This document shows, piece after piece, positions 174 through 8,832 of a stretch of 39,997 bases of DNA. The stretch's first letter is position 1. Each line of letters starts with the position of its first letter. This stretch comes from an uncultured Flavobacteriales bacterium (lineage in GTDB: Bacteria; Bacteroidota; Bacteroidia; Flavobacteriales_E; Vicingaceae), in the NCBI GenBank assembly GCA_905479915.1, contig CAJQOH010000052.1, positions 1-39,997 on the forward strand. The letters are read 5' to 3'. A program made the position numbers and the translations under genes. The notes under the pieces are model-generated. The model did no database searches and was not told the DNA's origin. It was given only the letters and a program-made list of their open reading frames with translations.

Positions 174-197
174 AGCCGCACTTGAAAAAGTGCGGCT
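174..197. other. strong hairpin with GAAA tetraloop
   Basis: A perfect 10-bp GC-rich stem (174-183 with 188-197) closes a GAAA loop. No T-run follows on either strand; the plus strand continues with an A-run. It lies just upstream of the TPR fragment and may be the end of a lost transcript, but it is not a textbook intrinsic terminator. Confidence 0.5.
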
Positions 198-238
198 TAA
201 AAAACAATATAAATAGAGTAGGGTAATCTTAGTTTGAG

Positions 239-285
239 GTGTTTTATTGGTGTAGTAATTTAAAATTACTACACCAATAAAACAC
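239..285. repeat. perfect inverted repeat, 23-bp arms, 1-base centre
   Basis: Bases 239-261 are the exact reverse complement of 263-285, with a single A (262) between them. The palindrome ends 24 bases before the start codon of the 1588-aa secreted protein. It is not followed by a T-run on either strand, so it does not look like a terminator. It could be a large operator, a cruciform-forming site or the remnant of a small palindromic element. Confidence 0.85.
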
Positions 286-309
286 GTATCACACTTTAAA
301 TAAATAAAC

Positions 310-3300
310 ATGATGAAAAAGAACTTATTATTTCTTGTAGTTACACTTTTTTCAAGTGTAGCTTTTGCTCAAACTAGTTGTGATACAGCAACCATATATT
401 CCAATACAACTTCTAATGCGGTGTGTTTTGATACCATTGGAACAAACGTTTTGGGGTGTTATAGTAACGATTATCCAGATCATGATGATAGTTATAATTC
501 TCCATTTACAGTAGCGGCAAGTAATCAAGAATACTACATGTGTTTGTATCCTGATACTGCAGTTAATTTCACTCCTTTATATGAAGCAACAGAAACAGCA
601 TTAGGGTGTAATTATACTTATCAGTTTGGTGTAGCTATCAATGGAATTGGGCTTACTCCAAATTCAAATGAAACATTTGTAGACACGCTTACAGGCGAGA
701 ATAATATAGAATGGCATAAAGAAGCCAGATATATGTTTAACGCTAATTTTGGAAATAATGGAGGGCATATTAATGCTTTTGGTTCTTATCATTATCATGA
801 TGTACCGGTAGATTATTTTACAGACAGTTTAGGAATTAGCAGTTCTGGTCATTCATCTATAGTAGGATATGCTGCAGATGGTTTTCCTATTTATTACAAG
901 TATGTATATTCAGACCCTAATAATTCTGGTAGTGGAATTGTTGGATTGTCATCAGGATATAGTTTAAAATCTGGAACTAGAACAGGAGATGGAGAGTCTG
1001 CACCAGATGGAGCATATTCTGGTTTGTATTATGAAGATTATGAATATACAGCAACAGATTTGGATAGTTGTAATGGGAGGTATGGAATAACACCTGAATA
1101 TCCAAATGGAACTTACTATTATGTGTTAACAGATAATTATCCATACATACCTAGATGTTTTAAAGGAACTGTTTTAGACAATACGTTTAGATCTTTGTCG
1201 AACTGTCCTACATCTACGGCTTCTACTGACTGTTCTGAGCCAGTTTTTGGATGTATGGATCCATTTTCATGTAATTATAACTCTTCAGCAACTGTAGATG
1301 ATGGGAGTTGTGATTACTCTTATACTTATGAAACTTCTTCTGAAAACTCAAGTACTAGTGTAGTATCACCAAGTGGAAATTATACTTGGACAACATCAGG
1401 AACATACAATGATACAATTGTTGCAGCCGGTTGTGATACCGTTTATACAGTTACGGTTACTATTACTACAAATAGTAGTACTCCAGGATGTTCATTACAG
1501 CCAGTAATTACAGATTGGGAATTAAATACAACAAATAAAACAGCTTCTTATTGGGAGTATGTTGGACCAGGATATTCATTTAACACAACAACCGATTTAG
1601 CAGATGTGTTATCTGTGTGTTATGATGAGGATACCGTTTGGATTGAGTCTGAAGGGATGACGAATGATATGGGACAGTTTTCAAATCCAGGAAGTGTTAT
1701 TGCCCAAGGATATCGATTTAAGTTTGCAAGAGACCCTGTTGCAGGAAGTGGAACTGAATCTGTACCAGAATCAAATACTATAGGTGTATTGCTAAATGGT
1801 ATTCCAATTTATGGATTAGGAGATGGGAAATCGTATCATTTCGGGTTGGGTTCAAATGAGCCTAATGGAGATGGTTTGTGGGTAGGCGAAGCGTATTATA
1901 CGGAGGGCGTTACATTAGATACGGCTTTTGCAGCTCACCCTCAACAATCAGGAGCTTACCATTCTCATGCTACACCATTTAGATATTATGATGATCCGGA
2001 TGTAGTTCATTCTCCTTTGGTAGGTTTTGCCAATGATGGATTTCCAGTATACGGACCTTTTGGGTATTCTACAGCATTAGATAGCAGTAGTGGAGTTGCT
2101 CGAATGGTTTCAGGGTATGCATTGAGAAATATTACAACAAGAGATACCTTGCCAGATGGAAGTGCTTCTATGCCACCAGGTCCTGCAGTTACATCAGGAG
2201 GTAGTTATGATATAGGGTCTTATGTACAAGATTATGAGTATTTAGGAACAGGAACTTTAGATGAGCATAATGGTAGGTTGTGTGTTACACCTGAGTATCC
2301 AAATGGAACCTATGCATATTTTGTAACCGTAGATGCTTTAGGGACACCTCAATTTCCATATTATGTTGGAACAACTTATTATGGGACTCTAGTAGCAGAC
2401 AATAATGATGGATCAGTTACTGCACCTTCTGGAGTGGTTTGTTATGATGGAACAACTTGTCCATTGCCTGTAGCCTCATTTACATCATTAAACGATAGTG
2501 TTTGTGTTGATTCAACAATGAGTTTTACAGATACTTCTACAGAGAGTCCAACCTCATGGTTGTGGACTTTTACAGGAGGAACACCAGCATCGTCAACAGC
2601 TCAAAACCCAACAGGAATTACTTATGCAACAGCAGGAGATTATGATGTGCAATTAATTGCTACAAATGCTAGTGGAACTGATACGATTACTTCGGTTGCT
2701 CACATTACTGCGTATACTTGTTCAACTCCACCTGTAGCAGCATTTACTTCTTCGGTTACACAGTCATGTGCTGGTTTTGTAGATTATACAGATCTTTCTA
2801 CAGGAAATCCAACATCATGGGAGTGGACATTTTCACCTGGAGGATCATTTGGAGTACCTGGAACAGATACACTTCAGAACCCTATAGGAATTTCATATTT
2901 TGTTGCAGGTTCTTGGGATGTTAAATTAAAAGTGACCAATGAATTTGGAAGTGATTCCATTACTATATCCAATTATATTGAGATTCTTACTTGTGGGGAT
3001 AATACTTGGCAGGGTAATACTGATACAGATTGGGGGACAGCAAGTAATTGGCTAGGAGGAATAGTCCCATCTGCAGGAGATACGATAACAATACCTTCAG
3101 GAAGAACGAATTATCCGGTATTAGATATGGGTAGAACAATAGGAGGTTTAGAGTTTTACGGAGGAACATTTGATTTGAATGGTTTTGAAGTAACTGTTGA
3201 AGGAGATTGGGACAATCAGAATGGTACATTGGTAAGTAATTCTGGTAGTACCAAATTTGCAGGAACTTCTGTCCAAGAAATTACAGGAGATCAAACCTTT

Positions 3301-5076
3301 CATGATGTTGAGGTTGATAATTCTGCCGGTGTAAATATAACTTCTGGAGCAGATTCTATATCTGGGGTGATGACATTAACTTCAGGAACATTTACAACAA
3401 ATAATTCATTAACTATAGTTTCTGATGCTTCAGGAACAGGGAGTATTGCAACGATTCAATCTGGAGCTGATATTACAGGAAATGTTGAGGTTCAGAGATA
3501 TATAAATACAGGACAAACCAATTGGCATTTATTTAGTTCGCCTATAAGTGGTTCTGTATTGTCAGATTGGAATGATGATTTTGAAACTTCAGGAATTCCA
3601 GGATCTCTTTATCCATTGTTTCCTTATACAGGAACTCCATGGGCTTCAGTTTATGAATATGACGAAACAGTTTTAGATCATTTAGACTCAGGATTTGTAG
3701 CGCCATCCAATATGAGTAATGTGATGGGGTCTGGTTCAGGATATATGGTTTGGTGTGGAGATACTATAACAGGAACCGATCCATTTACAATAGATATGGC
3801 CGGTCCTATTAATAAAGGAGATATTAGCATGCCAGTTACATACAGTAATAGTGGAGATTCTGCACGTGATGGATGGAACTTGGTAGGTAACCCTTATCCA
3901 TCAACTATTGATTGGGATGATACTGATTGGGTAAAAACAGGGATTAGTGATGCTGTTTATGTTTATGATCCAGATCTGCAGCAATTTGCAGAATATGTTT
4001 CGGGAGCATCAAACAATGGAGGATCTCAATACATTGCTTCATCACAAGGGTTTTGGGTTCAGACAGTAAGTGCAACACCAGTATTAACAGCTAAAGAAGG
4101 AGTTAAGTCTAATATGGATTCAACGTTCTTTAAACAAGGAAATCTTCCATTTAGGATTAATGTATTAAAAGGAAGTTATAAAGATCAAACAACCCTTAGA
4201 ATTGGCTCTGGAGCAACTATGAATTTTGATAGTCAATACGATGCATATAAGATGTATAGTACAAGTGCTAATGTTCCATCAATATGTACCATATCAAAAG
4301 ATGATGGAGAATTATCGATTAACAGTATTAATTCTAATTCAGGAGGAAGTATTCCAGTAAAAATTACAGCAGCTACTTCTGGATTGGCTCAACTTACATT
4401 TGAGAATCTATCAGGGTTAAGTGATTTTAATTGTGTGTATTTAGAAGATAAGCAATCAGGAACATTTATAGATGTATTAACATCAAGTGGGTATACCTTT
4501 TATCTTTATGATACAACCAGTACAGCAAGATTTGTGTTACACTTAGAGCGATTGGTTGCAGACTTTACAGCAGTAGATACAGTTGATTTAGGAGTAAACA
4601 ATGGAGCATTTAGCCCTAGCAATACATCGGTTAATGTATCACAATACTTCTGGGATTTTGGAGATAACACTACATCAACAGCACAAAACCCAGTACACCA
4701 TTATACACAAGCTGGATTGTATAACGTTAAACTAGAAGTTGGCGGATTACAATCATGTGTAGAGAGTCAAGTAAGACAAGTAGAGGTTGTTTCTTCAGGA
4801 GTTACTTCGGTAAATGAGTTGTCGTTAAATGGGTTGACTGTTTATCCAAATCCAGTGAAGATTGGAGAACACTTACAATTTTCTTTTGAAGCTACATCAG
4901 ATTATACAATTAGTATAGTAGATGTATTAGGGAAAGTAGTTTTAGAGGATAGGGTAAATAAGAAAAATCAATCTGTATTAGTTGATTCTAATTTTGATAC
5001 AGGAATATACTTTGTTAAGCTTTACGATGCTACTAACACTCAAGTGAAAACAATTAAACTAATTGTAAGTGAATAA
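310..5076 (+). CDS. large secreted YHYH/PKD-domain protein with T9SS sorting domain
   Basis: 1588 aa, predicted to be exported by Sec and then carried across the outer membrane by the type IX system. A signal peptide (residues 1-21, ending AFAQ) leads to a YHYH domain (SYHYHDVP near residue 160, then GYAADGFPIYY) and a short Cys-rich GCMDPFSCNYN motif near 314. A second YHYH domain follows (AYHSHATP near 551, GFANDGFPVYGPF). Both YHYH units close with a TPEYPNGTY segment. Next come two PKD domains (about 721-795 and 808-890), a beta-rich region (about 898-1400) containing a WHLFSSPI segment, a third PKD (about 1416-1495, WDFGDNTTSTAQNPVH), and a C-terminal sorting domain from about 1502 (LTVYPNPV, DVLGKVV, GIYFVKLY). 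The start is ATGATG; either ATG could serve. The biochemical role of YHYH domains is unknown, and a surface or adhesin-like role is inferred. Its stop overlaps the GTG start of the next gene by 8 bases. Confidence 0.9.
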   Translation: MMKKNLLFLVVTLFSSVAFAQTSCDTATIYSNTTSNAVCFDTIGTNVLGCYSNDYPDHDDSYNSPFTVAASNQEYYMCLYPDTAVNFTPLYEATETALGCNYTYQFGVAINGIGLTPNSNETFVDTLTGENNIEWHKEARYMFNANFGNNGGHINAFGSYHYHDVPVDYFTDSLGISSSGHSSIVGYAADGFPIYYKYVYSDPNNSGSGIVGLSSGYSLKSGTRTGDGESAPDGAYSGLYYEDYEYTATDLDSCNGRYGITPEYPNGTYYYVLTDNYPYIPRCFKGTVLDNTFRSLSNCPTSTASTDCSEPVFGCMDPFSCNYNSSATVDDGSCDYSYTYETSSENSSTSVVSPSGNYTWTTSGTYNDTIVAAGCDTVYTVTVTITTNSSTPGCSLQPVITDWELNTTNKTASYWEYVGPGYSFNTTTDLADVLSVCYDEDTVWIESEGMTNDMGQFSNPGSVIAQGYRFKFARDPVAGSGTESVPESNTIGVLLNGIPIYGLGDGKSYHFGLGSNEPNGDGLWVGEAYYTEGVTLDTAFAAHPQQSGAYHSHATPFRYYDDPDVVHSPLVGFANDGFPVYGPFGYSTALDSSSGVARMVSGYALRNITTRDTLPDGSASMPPGPAVTSGGSYDIGSYVQDYEYLGTGTLDEHNGRLCVTPEYPNGTYAYFVTVDALGTPQFPYYVGTTYYGTLVADNNDGSVTAPSGVVCYDGTTCPLPVASFTSLNDSVCVDSTMSFTDTSTESPTSWLWTFTGGTPASSTAQNPTGITYATAGDYDVQLIATNASGTDTITSVAHITAYTCSTPPVAAFTSSVTQSCAGFVDYTDLSTGNPTSWEWTFSPGGSFGVPGTDTLQNPIGISYFVAGSWDVKLKVTNEFGSDSITISNYIEILTCGDNTWQGNTDTDWGTASNWLGGIVPSAGDTITIPSGRTNYPVLDMGRTIGGLEFYGGTFDLNGFEVTVEGDWDNQNGTLVSNSGSTKFAGTSVQEITGDQTFHDVEVDNSAGVNITSGADSISGVMTLTSGTFTTNNSLTIVSDASGTGSIATIQSGADITGNVEVQRYINTGQTNWHLFSSPISGSVLSDWNDDFETSGIPGSLYPLFPYTGTPWASVYEYDETVLDHLDSGFVAPSNMSNVMGSGSGYMVWCGDTITGTDPFTIDMAGPINKGDISMPVTYSNSGDSARDGWNLVGNPYPSTIDWDDTDWVKTGISDAVYVYDPDLQQFAEYVSGASNNGGSQYIASSQGFWVQTVSATPVLTAKEGVKSNMDSTFFKQGNLPFRINVLKGSYKDQTTLRIGSGATMNFDSQYDAYKMYSTSANVPSICTISKDDGELSINSINSNSGGSIPVKITAATSGLAQLTFENLSGLSDFNCVYLEDKQSGTFIDVLTSSGYTFYLYDTTSTARFVLHLERLVADFTAVDTVDLGVNNGAFSPSNTSVNVSQYFWDFGDNTTSTAQNPVHHYTQAGLYNVKLEVGGLQSCVESQVRQVEVVSSGVTSVNELSLNGLTVYPNPVKIGEHLQFSFEATSDYTISIVDVLGKVVLEDRVNKKNQSVLVDSNFDTGIYFVKLYDATNTQVKTIKLIVSE

Positions 5077-5418
5077 GAATGCGGTAATAACTTTTGTAAT
5101 TGCGATTGTTGGCGTTGTATTGTCAATAAATACAGTTCAAGCACAAAAAGTGTTTACTGTTAAGTATGAAAGCCAAGCAGACGTTAAGTCTTTATTGTAA
5201 AATATGAATCACAGTGCGATTTAAAAGTATATCACGTAAAGTATGAATCACAAGCCAAAAAAGATGGTAAATGGTTCAATGTGAAGTACGAAAGTCAAGC
5301 AGATAAGAAACTGTATTATGTGAAATATGAATCACAAGCAGATTTAAAGATCTTCTATGTTGATTATGAATCACAAGCTGGTTGGAAAAACACCTCCAAA
5401 TCACATTTGATGAAATAA
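5069..5418 (+). pseudogene. DUF6150-type repeat protein, interrupted by a -1 frameshift
   Basis: Two adjoining frames encode one recognisable small secreted protein. The first, from GTG 5069 to TAA 5198-5200 (43 aa), gives a good signal peptide ending NTVQAQ and then VFTVKYESQADVKSLL. The second, from GTA 5197 to TAA 5416-5418 (73 aa), continues in the next frame with VKYESQCDLKVYH, then further VKYESQA(D) units, and ends AGWKNTSKSHLMK. Repeated (V)KYESQADxK units with an AGWKN tail are the DUF6150 pattern as I know it. One base appears to be missing near 5191-5197 (TCTTTATTG, where KSLxVKY is expected). The site does not fit the X XXY YYZ slippery heptamer, so programmed frameshifting is unlikely. 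It could be a real lesion or a sequence error. The gene overlaps the end of the upstream T9SS substrate and ends in a strong terminator, so the two may be co-transcribed. Confidence 0.8.
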
Positions 5419-5458
5419 AAACTACTCTTTAACAGAATTCTGTTAAAGGGTAGTTTTT
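5417..5458. terminator. bidirectional intrinsic terminator
   Basis: The 21-base arms (5417-5437 and 5438-5458) are complementary apart from one G-U wobble. An A-run on the left and a T-run on the right give a U-tract in both directions. It serves the rightward DUF6150 gene and the leftward TonB-C-like gene. Confidence 0.85.
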
Positions 5459-5469
5459 ATCTTTAAAAA

Positions 5470-6303
5470 TCAACAACCATTTTGCCCTATATCTAGCACA
5501 AATTTTTGTTTAATAGTTTCACCTTGTGAATTCTTGGCAGGACTCCAATTGGGCATATTTGCAATTAGACTTATCAGCATTGTATCAATTTCTTTATCTA
5601 AGTATGAGCTGTCCAGTTGAATATTTTCAGCATCGCCTTTTTCATTAATGACAAAAGTTATAGTAGCTTCAGGTAAATATTTAAAATTCTTAGCCTGAAT
5701 TTTCATCATGCTATTCTCTTTTAAATAGTCAATCATTTTATCATAGCCTCCGATAAATTCAGCTTGTTTTTCAGGAGTAATAATTAATGAGAAATTCATT
5801 TGTCTATTTTGAATTTCATTGTTGTAGTTTTCTTTTTGATAATGCACATTAATTAGAATATCAGAAGCGTTTTTAAACAGTTCTTTTTGTTCTTTCGTAA
5901 GTGTTGCATCAACCCCTGTAACAGAAACTTCTGTTCCTTTTAAAGTTGTTGAGACCACTACAGAATTATAATCTTTGATCCAACTTGAAGGATAGTTTTC
6001 AATAACATCACTGATTGATTCTGCTTGAATTAATTTTTGTTGAGTTATAGGTCGAAAGAATCCGTTATTACTAAAGCCTCTTACATTATAAAATAATTCT
6101 TGTTCTATAGAAATGTTGTTTAATTCAGAAATACCTACATCAAAGTATTCCCTTCCATTGTGTTGATTGATTTTTGGTTGAATAGATACTGAACTGGTTT
6201 CATATGTGACTGATTGAGATTTTATAGGTTTATTAATGAAGGCAAAAGTTATGATTCCAATTGTTGCTATAAGGATGCTGAAGATTAGTGATCGTGTTTG
6301 CAT
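5470..6303 (-). CDS. TonB C-terminal-like domain protein, inner-membrane anchored
   Basis: 277 aa. An N-terminal hydrophobic segment (about residues 6-23) serves as signal or anchor, followed by a periplasmic region I do not recognise (about 30-200). The last 73 residues look like a TonB C-terminal domain: YLPEATITFVINEKGDAEN, a helix, then MPNWSPAKNSQGETIKQKF, which is the usual xPxWxPAxxxGxxVxxxF pattern. A classical Pro-rich linker is absent and no exbB or exbD lies in the window, so a normal energy-transducer role is doubtful. It may be a sensor, anti-regulator or accessory envelope protein. It is transcribed divergently from a membrane-bound winged-helix regulator across a 134-base region with repeats, which suggests that regulator controls it. 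The fold of the C-terminal domain is well supported; the function is not. Confidence 0.75.
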   Translation of the reverse strand: MQTRSLIFSILIATIGIITFAFINKPIKSQSVTYETSSVSIQPKINQHNGREYFDVGISELNNISIEQELFYNVRGFSNNGFFRPITQQKLIQAESISDVIENYPSSWIKDYNSVVVSTTLKGTEVSVTGVDATLTKEQKELFKNASDILINVHYQKENYNNEIQNRQMNFSLIITPEKQAEFIGGYDKMIDYLKENSMMKIQAKNFKYLPEATITFVINEKGDAENIQLDSSYLDKEIDTMLISLIANMPNWSPAKNSQGETIKQKFVLDIGQNGC

Positions 6304-6332
6304 AATGAGTTGTTTTAAGCGTAATTATGAAT

Positions 6333-6340
6333 CAAATTTA
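6333..6340 (-). promoter_or_regulatory. -7 promoter element for the TonB-C-like gene
   Basis: On the minus strand this reads TAAATTTG, a perfect match to the Bacteroidota -7 consensus TAnnTTTG, 30 bases before the ATG. I see no clear TTG at the usual -33 spacing. The first GTGTAAA repeat (6343-6349) sits right beside it, as expected of a regulated promoter. Confidence 0.45.
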
Positions 6341-6342
6341 CA

Positions 6343-6399
6343 GTGTAAAAGCCTCTTTGGCCGAATGTCAAGTGTAAATTAGTGTAAAACCATTGTAAA
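6343..6399 (+). promoter_or_regulatory. GTGTAAA direct repeats, putative operator
   Basis: GTGTAAA occurs at 6343-6349, 6372-6378 and 6382-6388, and the variant TTGTAAA at 6393-6399. The last three start 10 and 11 bases apart, about one helical turn. OmpR/PhoB-type winged-helix domains usually bind direct repeats at that pitch, and the adjacent gene encodes such a domain. The repeats are seen directly; the operator role is inferred. Confidence 0.5.
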
Positions 6400-6437
6400 T
6401 TAAGGCATTGAGTAATCAAAAGTTATAAATTTACAAC

Positions 6438-7286
6438 ATGAAAAAATGGTGCTCTATATTTATATTGCTAGGCTCTTTGGTTTTGCAAAGCTGTGAGAAA
6501 AACAATACTGTTCTCCAAAAAGATAGAGATGAAGTAGTGATGCGTAGAATTGGTCATGAAATTCTATTGAGCTCTGGAAATCAAATTTCTCTAGTTAAAC
6601 CTATACTTAAAGAAGGAGATCAGTATCGAATTCAATTTGGTTCTGAGTTTGGGTTTCCTCCAGAAGGAATTGTACTTATAATTGACTCAATAATAAGTAG
6701 CTCACACATTGAAGAAAGTTATTTAGTTAAAATAGAGGAATGTACAACAGGGGCTGTTGTTTACAGTTATGAAGTGGATTTTTTCTCCTCTGTTCCTGTA
6801 TTGGATGCGGTATCTTGTAGAGAACGAGCCCAGCCAAAAGCTTGTTATGAAATAATAATTAAGTTTTTAGAGAAGAAAAAAATGGTGGGTAATTCAAACA
6901 TATTGTTTTTAGTAATAGGGGCTGCCTTTTTTATTTTATTAGTTGTTTTTTTTAGAAAAAAGAAATCTAAGCAGAAAGTAGATAATAGTAAAATACAACT
7001 TGGAGACTATTTATATGATCCAAAGAAAATGGTATTAATCCGTCAAGAAAAAACGATTGAATTGACAAGTAAAGAAAGTGATTTGTTAAATGTGCTCTAC
7101 GAATCTGTTAATGAAACGGTAGAAAAGGAAACTATTTTAAATAAGGTTTGGGGAGATGAAGGTGATTATGTAGGAAGAACTTTAGATGTTTATGTATCTA
7201 AACTTAGAAAGAAATTAGAAAGCGATGAGTCTATTGAGCTTAAAAATATTCGAGGGGTTGGTTATAAACTGATTCTGGAAGATTGA
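6438..7286 (+). CDS. membrane-anchored winged-helix transcriptional regulator
   Basis: 282 aa. The N-terminus is a signal sequence with a lipobox-like LQSC (Cys19). A periplasmic domain of about 130 residues follows (RRIGHEILLSSGN, later Cys102, Cys127 and Cys136), then one transmembrane helix (about 153-172), a basic RKKKSKQK stretch, and a cytoplasmic OmpR-type DNA-binding domain (about 185-280: ELTSKESDLLNVL, ILNKVWGD, RTLDVYVSKLRKKL, IRGVGYKLI). This is a one-component regulator of a kind common in Bacteroidota: periplasmic sensing is joined directly to the DNA-binding domain, with no receiver or kinase. It is divergent from the TonB-C-like gene and probably regulates it, and perhaps itself, through the GTGTAAA repeats. 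The signal sensed is unknown. Confidence 0.85.
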   Translation: MKKWCSIFILLGSLVLQSCEKNNTVLQKDRDEVVMRRIGHEILLSSGNQISLVKPILKEGDQYRIQFGSEFGFPPEGIVLIIDSIISSSHIEESYLVKIEECTTGAVVYSYEVDFFSSVPVLDAVSCRERAQPKACYEIIIKFLEKKKMVGNSNILFLVIGAAFFILLVVFFRKKKSKQKVDNSKIQLGDYLYDPKKMVLIRQEKTIELTSKESDLLNVLYESVNETVEKETILNKVWGDEGDYVGRTLDVYVSKLRKKLESDESIELKNIRGVGYKLILED

Positions 7287-7287
7287 T

Positions 7288-8832
7288 CTATTTTTGCGTC
7301 ATCAATATCTTTAAAACATTCAATTGATTGTTTTCGTCAACTTTTTCACCATCATGATAAAAAGAGATCAATTCTAGAGGTGTTCCATTCCAACAAAGGT
7401 TGGCAACATTATCAGGACTAATGGTATGCCTTCCAACAGTTTTTTCTGTAGGCCACTCTATTTGAGGAAAGCAAACATAAGCCAATTCGGAACAAACAAT
7501 TTTTTCGGTGGTATTTACATCAAAATTAAAATCATACTCTTTACCAATTTGTCTAAAGGTAAGAAGTAATGATTCTTTTTCTTTTTCAGTAATGTTGTTA
7601 GAAAAAACGGGTCTTAAAATGGCGATATCATCAATATTCATAAACTCCTCTAAGGAACTTAATTTTACACCCTCACGCAAGGCTTCTACAATTTGATATC
7701 CATCATTAGAACTCTCCTTATTGCCTCTTGGTGTTATCTTGTGATGATGTGGTTGAACTACTTCATGATTCCATAACCCTTTAGCTTTCAATTCTTCTTG
7801 ATTTCCAACCCAAATTGCTACATGGCCAAAATGACCCGGAATTAACTTGTCTGTTAATCTAAAAGGTGTTTTTTCAAGAATGATATCTAATGGCTGTAAT
7901 TGTTCTAAAAGTTCTTTTCTGATGGCTTCTTTTTTATAGAGCTTCCCTTTTCTAGATTCTATTAACCCAACGGAGTTTCCAAAAAACTTGCTTACCCCAT
8001 CAAAACCATCGTCTCTCATTTCTGCAACGATATCGCGAGAAATTTTACCAAACATTTTAAATTTCTTTTTTAGCATTCCTGAAGTTCCAATATTTTTTAA
8101 GTGATTGTAAGAAGGGCTAGAATAGATGAGCAATTTTAGGTAGAAGAAATCATCATCATTTATGTCACTAAACATTTCTTTTTTTGCTTCAAAAAAATGA
8201 ATGCCATCTTGTATTCTTTTTTGTTTGCTTATAGAGTTTGCAGCTAGTGTAATTTCTAACAATTCATTGGCTGAAATTCCAAAACCTTTATCTGGGTCAT
8301 TTAGAATTCTACGGAGTCGTTTGTCGTTTTCGAACAAAAGAGCCCCCATTAAATAATTGTCATATAATGTAAGGGCAGCAGCAATAGAAAGCATTACAGC
8401 TTTTGTTCGGATAATTTCTGGAATTTGTTGTCTTGCCAATTCTTCATTTGTTGCATCTAAGGCGCATTCATATCTATTGGTGATGGCATAAAGTTGATCT
8501 CTTAATGTTAAACAAAGTTGTGTGTTTTCTTTTAAGTATTCTAAATGTTTTGATGCAATGGGTTGATCTGGAGTCGCTTCAATTTGGTTAGCAATTTTTA
8601 TCATTCCTGACCTTATGGTTAAACTTTGTTCAACAAGTACTTGAAACTCTTTCACTTCAAAATCAACTAAAGAATCTAAATCGTTAATTGTATTTATTTG
8701 TTTTTGAATATTACTCCAGCAGATTTTTTTTTGCTGTTGTTGCTGCTCTTTTTTAGAGAAATAACCAACCACTAAAATCATTATGATTAAAGTAATAATA
8801 TAGTGTGGGAAATATCTTTTTTTAAGGCGCAT
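7288..8832 (-). CDS. YiiX/YebB-like (NlpC/P60-superfamily) cysteine hydrolase
   Basis: 514 aa. One N-terminal transmembrane helix (about 11-24) precedes a Gln-rich stretch and a long, mostly helical region (about 40-310) I do not recognise. The C-terminal part fits the permuted papain-like YiiX/YebB family: PLDIILEK at 314-321, the catalytic His in GHVAIWVG (His337), and the catalytic Cys in KIVCSELAYVCF (Cys447). The order His before Cys is the circularly permuted arrangement of this family. The substrate is unknown; relatives are proposed to act on cell-wall peptides, amides or lipids. It converges with the upstream regulator, with one base between the two stop codons, and diverges from the MazG-like gene. 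Confidence 0.75.
   Translation of the reverse strand: MRLKKRYFPHYIITLIIMILVVGYFSKKEQQQQQKKICWSNIQKQINTINDLDSLVDFEVKEFQVLVEQSLTIRSGMIKIANQIEATPDQPIASKHLEYLKENTQLCLTLRDQLYAITNRYECALDATNEELARQQIPEIIRTKAVMLSIAAALTLYDNYLMGALLFENDKRLRRILNDPDKGFGISANELLEITLAANSISKQKRIQDGIHFFEAKKEMFSDINDDDFFYLKLLIYSSPSYNHLKNIGTSGMLKKKFKMFGKISRDIVAEMRDDGFDGVSKFFGNSVGLIESRKGKLYKKEAIRKELLEQLQPLDIILEKTPFRLTDKLIPGHFGHVAIWVGNQEELKAKGLWNHEVVQPHHHKITPRGNKESSNDGYQIVEALREGVKLSSLEEFMNIDDIAILRPVFSNNITEKEKESLLLTFRQIGKEYDFNFDVNTTEKIVCSELAYVCFPQIEWPTEKTVGRHTISPDNVANLCWNGTPLELISFYHDGEKVDENNQLNVLKILMTQK

Follow-up and report, generated by a model that had tools for sequence, protein, structure and literature searches.

An apparently undescribed family of predicted transmembrane winged-helix regulators and its putative triple-repeat operator in Bacteroidia

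We analysed a 39,997-nucleotide stretch of DNA from an uncultured Flavobacteriales bacterium (hereafter the window, which is the entire contig C52 of a 74-contig assembly), and in it two divergent genes that lie 134 base pairs (bp) apart, one for a regulator (6438-7286) and one for a TonB_C-like protein, its partner. We consider it probable that the regulator, whose family is apparently undescribed, is a one-component transmembrane transcription factor that would bind a triple repeat between the two genes and activate both divergent promoters as well as a third gene on contig C28. Searches of the open-access literature, judged by titles and abstract openings, showed no description of this family, which is real, conserved and equipped with a recognisable operator.

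In the mechanism that we propose, the N-terminal domain of the regulator would sense, in the periplasm, the state of the envelope to which TonB_C-like proteins respond, and one helix across the inner membrane would join this sensor to a C-terminal OmpR/PhoB-type winged helix. OmpR-type regulators bind head-to-tail direct repeats with a period of about 11 bp. The winged helices would likewise occupy the triple direct repeat (6372-6399) as a row of head-to-tail subunits, and the bound regulator would then activate its own promoter and the promoter of its TonB_C-like neighbour; it would also activate, in trans, a second TonB_C-like gene of the same genome (G000:C28). The operator can be recognised by eye and has two exact sites in this genome; since target, site, orientation and candidate sensing residues can be named, the circuit is directly testable.

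The putative operator and its link to the regulator

An earlier note on this DNA had listed GTGTAAA at 6343, 6372 and 6382 and TTGTAAA at 6393, and the sequence has them exactly there (start spacings of 29, 10 and 11 bases). KTGTAAA occurs 47 times in the window against 32.4 expected, a count that one of 100 shuffles reached. A group of three starts inside 24 bp of a single strand is seen just once in the window, and none of 400 simulated 40-kb strands (order-2 Markov) contains one. The note had thought the 10- and 11-base spacing suited to OmpR-type binding. It is these three repeats that are kept in relatives: TGTAAA-N4-TGTAAA is found in 19 of 20 intergenic regions, whatever the type of partner, mostly followed by N5-TGTAA, and the one exception (L025) has a 15/17 match slightly further upstream. 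The copy at 6343, which the note had counted among the repeats, has no TGTAAA at its place in any of the 19 other intergenic regions, and we rejected it as part of the operator.

The same pattern holds in a much larger set. From 154 loci we derived 150 non-redundant regulator genes (one locus had no complete open reading frame, ORF, for a regulator in the length range, and the others were duplicates, such as L098 and L186, which have the same sequence and were counted once), and 147 of these genes have at least 150 bp of upstream sequence. Upstream of 66 the operator scores at least 15/17, whereas the maximum in 60 first-order Markov resamplings of each of 74 upstream regions was 14, so that none reached 15. 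All but one of the 66 lie on the regulator strand, and their position is fixed: the distance from operator start to ATG is exactly 65 bp in 34, 66 bp in 8 and 75-78 bp in 12, the last about one helical turn beyond the 65-bp class.

The exact operator is also linked to the regulator across genomes, as it occurs in 32 of 72 regulator-positive genomes versus 1 of 72 regulator-negative ones, while the reversed pattern occurs in neither set. The positives are 60 genomes from a profile search of the class and 12 relatives, with two weak class positives (G059 and G313) omitted; some of the negatives were judged solely by the absence of a full-length match in the search of relatives. The sole match in a negative genome (L176) precedes, by eye, a gene of the lipoprotein family that serves as partner in other loci. 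A chance origin of the repeats is ruled out by the Markov simulation, the resampled upstream regions and the regulator-negative genomes. The repeats, conserved together with the regulator, are thus its likely binding site, as had been suggested. By sequence comparison this putative operator is conserved across the class Bacteroidia, and the conserved unit is regulator plus operator, with a neighbour gene that varies. In many related bacteria the same site is retained beside a different gene, and this suggests a type of envelope sensor that has not been described.

Promoter layout and the case for activation

When 42 regions are aligned by their operators, the best-conserved columns elsewhere spell two boxes: TAnnTTTG at +53 to +60, which leaves four bases to the ATG of the regulator, and the mirrored box of the partner, CAAAnnTA, at -40 to -33. 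A -33 box would fall on columns that are weak and unclear. In the window the partner has a perfect -7 box beside the first repeat, as the earlier note had it: CAAATTTA at 6333-6340, which is TAAATTTG on the minus strand, with its end 2 bp from the repeat at 6343. Because the operator sits between two mirrored -7 boxes, upstream of both, joint activation with autoregulation is the likeliest mode of action. In the part of the source used here, Flavobacterium psychrophilum has TAnnTTTG at -12 to -5, and leaderless transcripts make up 5.5% of its measured mRNAs (PMC9723704). By the -7 spacing given there, we predict a leaderless mRNA for the regulator; the operator would fall at about -65 to -39 relative to this start and at about -71 to -45 relative to that of the partner, which would be activator positions for both.

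Several findings weigh against the proposed mechanism. Exact operators are missing from 40 of the 72 regulator-positive genomes, and 81 of the 147 regulator genes score below 15/17. Flavobacterium, Chitinophaga, Mucilaginibacter and others form a large subgroup whose variant, near the start codon, has its middle repeat displaced, and in three members the operator lies 26-27 bp before the ATG, which would fit repression. With up to two mismatches the genome of the window has 8 sites, as compared with 4 of a reversed control. The regulator of G030 follows a TonB_C-like gene in tandem and no operator was found beside it, and for 22 of the 147 genes the upstream neighbour is not divergent or none was found. 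The N-terminal hydrophobic segment exceeds our threshold in just 36 of 54 members. In addition, the assemblies are drafts, in which an unlinked site means a site on another contig.

The operators of the three members and of the Flavobacterium-type variant, so near to the start codon, are what one would expect if the regulator were a repressor that a signal releases from the DNA, the divergent gene then being derepressed. Yet 42 of the 65 same-strand operators start 65-66 bp before the ATG and so lie outside both predicted core promoters, which show no clear -33 box; repression seems unlikely to us. Far less credible is that the operator belongs to another OmpR-type regulator, such as an RprY-like response regulator, with the membrane protein merely as a target: RprY is the best NCBIfam model for the winged helix (96 bits over residues 171-280, against a cut-off of 370) and six other places in the genome match this domain at 26-40% identity, yet all but one of 60 relatives have winged-helix matches, including those that lack the regulator family, and still 71 of 72 regulator-negative genomes have no exact operator.

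The two proteins and the systems that they resemble

We predict that the regulator carries its sensor on the outer side of the inner membrane and its DNA-binding domain on the inner side. The N-terminus is hydrophobic and carries a lipobox-like LQSC, a motif that our own lipobox pattern matches in 3 of 54 members. It leads into a domain of residues ~25-150, predicted to be periplasmic, then into one helix that would cross the inner membrane, and finally, at residues ~184-281, into a winged helix that would be cytoplasmic. A mid-protein hydrophobic segment is predicted in 52 of the 54 members, in line with the membrane tether that the earlier note had seen and that we place at residues 153-177. 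Alignment A5 comprises P0001 and 53 of the 79 regulators listed. Its call of an OmpR-type winged helix is also borne out, as residues 205-278 match Pfam Trans_reg_C with an E value of 8.9e-21, the sole Pfam family above cut-off. In the structure model (mean pLDDT, the confidence score of the prediction, 89.8) this domain aligns with SaeR (Z 15.1), CadC (Z 14.7, 101 residues, root-mean-square deviation 2.4) and ToxR (Z 14.6, 98 residues, deviation 2.3), and also with KdpE and PhoB structures. It is C-terminal in 23 of 23 aligned members. No receiver domain was found by Pfam, and the best 25 of 40 NCBIfam matches begin at residue 165 or later. A sequence search of the periplasmic part against solved structures gave no clear relative (best E 0.14); structure searches used the whole model and are dominated by winged-helix matches, and thus say nothing on the fold of residues 25-150.

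With ToxR, TcpP and CadC the regulator shares an OmpR-type winged helix, a single membrane helix, a periplasmic sensor and the lack of a receiver domain, its own topology being a prediction. In ToxR/CadC-type regulators, as far as the portion of the source used here describes them, the DNA-binding domain is N-terminal and cytoplasmic and the sensor C-terminal and periplasmic (PMC5936718). The order is reversed in the regulator family: because its periplasmic domain is N-terminal and its winged helix C-terminal, we liken it to the ToxR design turned around. The likeness may extend to cysteines, as the periplasmic domain of ToxR has a pair that forms an intra-chain disulfide, according to the part consulted of a second source (PMC7265457), and the regulator has a candidate pair in C102 and C136. 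The OmpR/PhoB response regulators (RprY, PhoB, SaeR, KdpE) have the same DNA-binding domain but an N-terminal receiver with a phospho-acceptor aspartate, whereas in the regulator this domain is joined to a membrane helix and a periplasmic domain, with no receiver found. Envelope sensing by the pair, another proposal of the earlier note, is inferred from this predicted topology.

The partner is less easily placed. Its model (mean pLDDT 75.9) has an N-terminal helix, a second domain at ~71-176 and a TonB C-terminal-like domain at ~178-277. The label TonB-C-like suits its family, since of 12 aligned members 10 have a Pfam TonB_C match at E values up to 0.1 (best 3.1e-6), whereas the protein of the window itself has no Pfam match at E up to 1 and reaches 14.4 bits with NCBIfam tonB_Cterm, below the cut-off of 27.1. 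Alignment A6 is P0002 with all 15 TonB-like ORFs listed. The model does align with 6i97_D (Z 8.0, deviation 3.2 over 89 residues) and with five more TonB-type entries at Z 6.1-6.7. Foldseek gave no match at E 0.001 or better: its lowest-E rows are unrelated folds of low probability, and TonB entries come at E 0.10 and 0.17 with probabilities of 0.97 and 0.99. The best solved-structure match by sequence is the TonB relative HasB (E 0.08).

TonB energy transducers have a proline-rich linker and a Ser/His motif in the N-terminal helix. As read from the sequence, residues 5-23 of the partner are without histidine and residues 24-66 hold two prolines, so that it lacks both the histidine and a proline-rich linker. 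It further differs from these transducers in its second domain, in a conserved C-terminal cysteine and in having ExbB elsewhere; it shares with them the C-terminal domain, seen in the family and under cut-off in the window protein. The earlier statement that no ExbB/D is nearby stands for ExbB, whose two family genes lie on C19 and C43 and not on C52; ExbD was not searched. Linkage to ExbB/ExbD genes is not required for TonB function.

Changing neighbours, second sites and cysteines

The pairing of the two genes recurs, as had been anticipated, in part of the family. A search of 60 relatives with the regulator returned 22 full-length homologues (L008-L029), of which 10 have a divergent TonB_C-like homologue. 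In 8 the divergent gene encodes a lipoprotein from a different family (GGWYCPDN motif), and in 2 it is of some other type; 1 follows a TonB_C-like gene in tandem, and a contig end truncates the last. In L186 the divergent row consists of a TonB_C-like gene and then a lipoprotein gene, which suggests a possible route by which one partner replaced the other. Three proteins of the lipoprotein family have nothing above the Pfam cut-off (AHSA1 at 0.06 and 0.055 in two of them, none in the third), nor have four partner proteins of 150-205 amino acids that we tried and the 183-residue one, while the 189-residue partner of L130 is YceI-like (Pfam). For several exported families that lack Pfam annotation, the circuit supplies a regulatory context. 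In these tallies some loci were counted by script and not by eye. A script also chose the partners, taking the longest ORF with its end no more than 350 bp upstream, and some of its choices are wrong (L109, L189).

Searched with a profile built on the periplasmic and membrane part, 62 of 395 genomes from the class give a match, two of them weakly; so do 25 of 395 in a sample of the phylum that overlaps the first, and every one of the 25 belongs to this class. Named genomes gave at least 80 loci when scanned, including Flavobacterium, Chryseobacterium, Chitinophaga, Mucilaginibacter, Pedobacter and Tenacibaculum, and among them one metagenome-assembled genome titled Candidatus Kapaibacterium. 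The variant operator has a form of its own: many members from Flavobacterium, Chitinophaga and Mucilaginibacter (L207-L259) share TTGTAAATAAAAATGTAAACTTTGTAAATA or close forms about 45 bp upstream of the ATG, with a spacing of 12 and 9. In L046 (G048:C40) a TonB_C-like partner homologue is divergent to a membrane ORF that looks sensor kinase-like by eye, and a winged-helix match lies about 2 kb off.

The earlier note saw in the two genes a self-contained module, and this part of its proposal fails, given that the neighbour varies among species and that the exact operator occurs twice in the 3.57-Mb genome, between the pair and before a TonB_C-like paralogue on G000:C28. Because this second site is exact, we envision a small regulon in place of a closed pair. 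Only exact sites count here, because the reversed control has mismatched ones too. Of 36 exact sites in positive genomes, six are not on the regulator's own contig (G000:C28, G008:C162, G030:C5, G037:C80, G125:C93 and G410:C11); four of these precede TonB_C-like genes and two adjoin exported-looking genes of 678 and 342 amino acids. TonB_C-like homologues on non-regulator contigs carry the repeats in G008, G004, G030 and G125, with a slightly different spacing in G004. In G271, G317 and G410:C22 the operator stands at the front of several genes that run on one strand towards the regulator. L174, L136, L139 and L141 likewise have a same-strand row of small exported proteins toward the regulator, with the operator before the first.

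The cysteines of both proteins are unevenly conserved. C102 is absent from 10 of the 150 regulators, C136 from 11 and both from 9; on a FastTree tree C102 changes 9 times, C136 10 times and C127 never. In supported independent pairs that differ in C102, C136 changes alike in 5 of 6 and oppositely in none (p 0.0625). From this pattern C102-C136 is probably a disulfide, and C127 reads as a lone thiol. On the partner side, 79 of 138 upstream partners end in cysteine versus 4 of 305 other ORFs of at least 150 amino acids in the same loci; all four of those are among the 106 controls with a hydrophobic N-terminus, and three of them are homologues of partner families. The ending dominates in clusters that share no mutual full-length BLAST similarity (30/35 TonB-like, 20/20, 9/11, 8/8 and 3/3). 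For these counts four ORFs were added by hand, two of them in the 8/8 cluster, and one wrong pick was removed. Five of five TonB_C-like homologues that have their own site away from the regulator end in GC.

To account for these cysteines the activation mechanism could be extended by a thiol feedback, in which the C-terminal cysteine of the partner reacts with C127 and reports, in the periplasm, the amount or the redox state of the target. The enrichment of the ending over control ORFs, its recurrence in dissimilar clusters, the invariance of C127 (150 of 150), the mostly joint loss of C102 and C136, and the one-directional changes of the two on the tree all favour such an exchange. Other observations do not: cysteine endings are few or absent in the lipoprotein cluster (0/11), the YceI-like one (1/8) and a further cluster (5/14), C127 may be structural, and a 190-residue partner family has a second cysteine (IEPRC) that may pair with the last one. 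Strict placement at the C-terminus is weakened by the fused partners L189 and L111, in which the end cysteine of the TonB-like module is kept though internal, and by L205, L206 and L210, where it lies 14 residues short of the end. Covariation of the tail cysteine with C102, which we also considered, is not significant on the tree (median p 0.25), the C102-C136 test gets no better than its p of 0.0625, and the partner picks, being automatic, are partly wrong. We therefore hold thiol feedback to be doubtful. The same tentative grade goes to the broader picture of a class-wide Bacteroidia envelope circuit, made of a regulator of inverted topology, a portable triple-repeat operator and a few exported proteins of interchangeable folds, measured through the end cysteine of the partner and the invariant cysteine of the regulator. 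If true, the regulon would report its own periplasmic state!

Table 1. Coordinates of the regulator, its partner and the elements between them in the window
Feature	Position	Strand	Basis
TonB_C-like partner gene	5470..6303	-	ORF, 277 amino acids, open
Codon of the partner C-terminal Cys	5473..5475	-	sequence
-7 box TAAATTTG of the TonB_C-like gene, conserved as CAAAnnTA	6333..6340	-	sequence, aligned regions
Fourth GTGTAAA, not conserved	6343..6349	+	sequence, intergenic comparison
Putative operator, three direct repeats at 6372, 6382 and 6393	6372..6399	+	sequence, conservation, aligned regions
-7-like box TAAATTTA of the regulator gene, 4 nt before ATG (TAnnTTTG in most members)	6426..6433	+	sequence, aligned regions
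Regulator gene	6438..7286	+	ORF, 282 amino acids, open; segments from sequence, Pfam and structure model
Codon of C102, candidate disulfide partner of C136	6741..6743	+	alignment, tree
Codon of C127, present in 150/150 regulators	6816..6818	+	regulator set
Codon of C136, candidate disulfide partner of C102	6843..6845	+	alignment, tree
Predicted membrane helix, residues 153-177, then a Lys/Arg run	6894..6968	+	structure model, hydrophobicity, sequence
OmpR/PhoB-type winged-helix DNA-binding domain, residues 184-282	6987..7283	+	Trans_reg_C 205-278; structure matches over 181-282

Beyond the pair, a gene for a Peptidase_C92 protein (YiiX-type amidase, Pfam) occupies 7288-8832 on the minus strand and ends one base past the end of the regulator gene; similar Peptidase_C92-like ORFs adjoin the regulator in L008, L009 and L011. 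On the other side, positions 5078-5419 (plus strand) hold a gene of KYESQAD-type repeats for a small exported protein, in two frames with stops, of which L009 has an open copy of 114 amino acids at the same place (181-525, plus strand). Further upstream, 310-5076 (plus strand) encodes a protein of 1588 amino acids that combines two YHYH stretches and PKD domains with a Por secretion C-terminal sorting domain and is probably cargo of type IX secretion.
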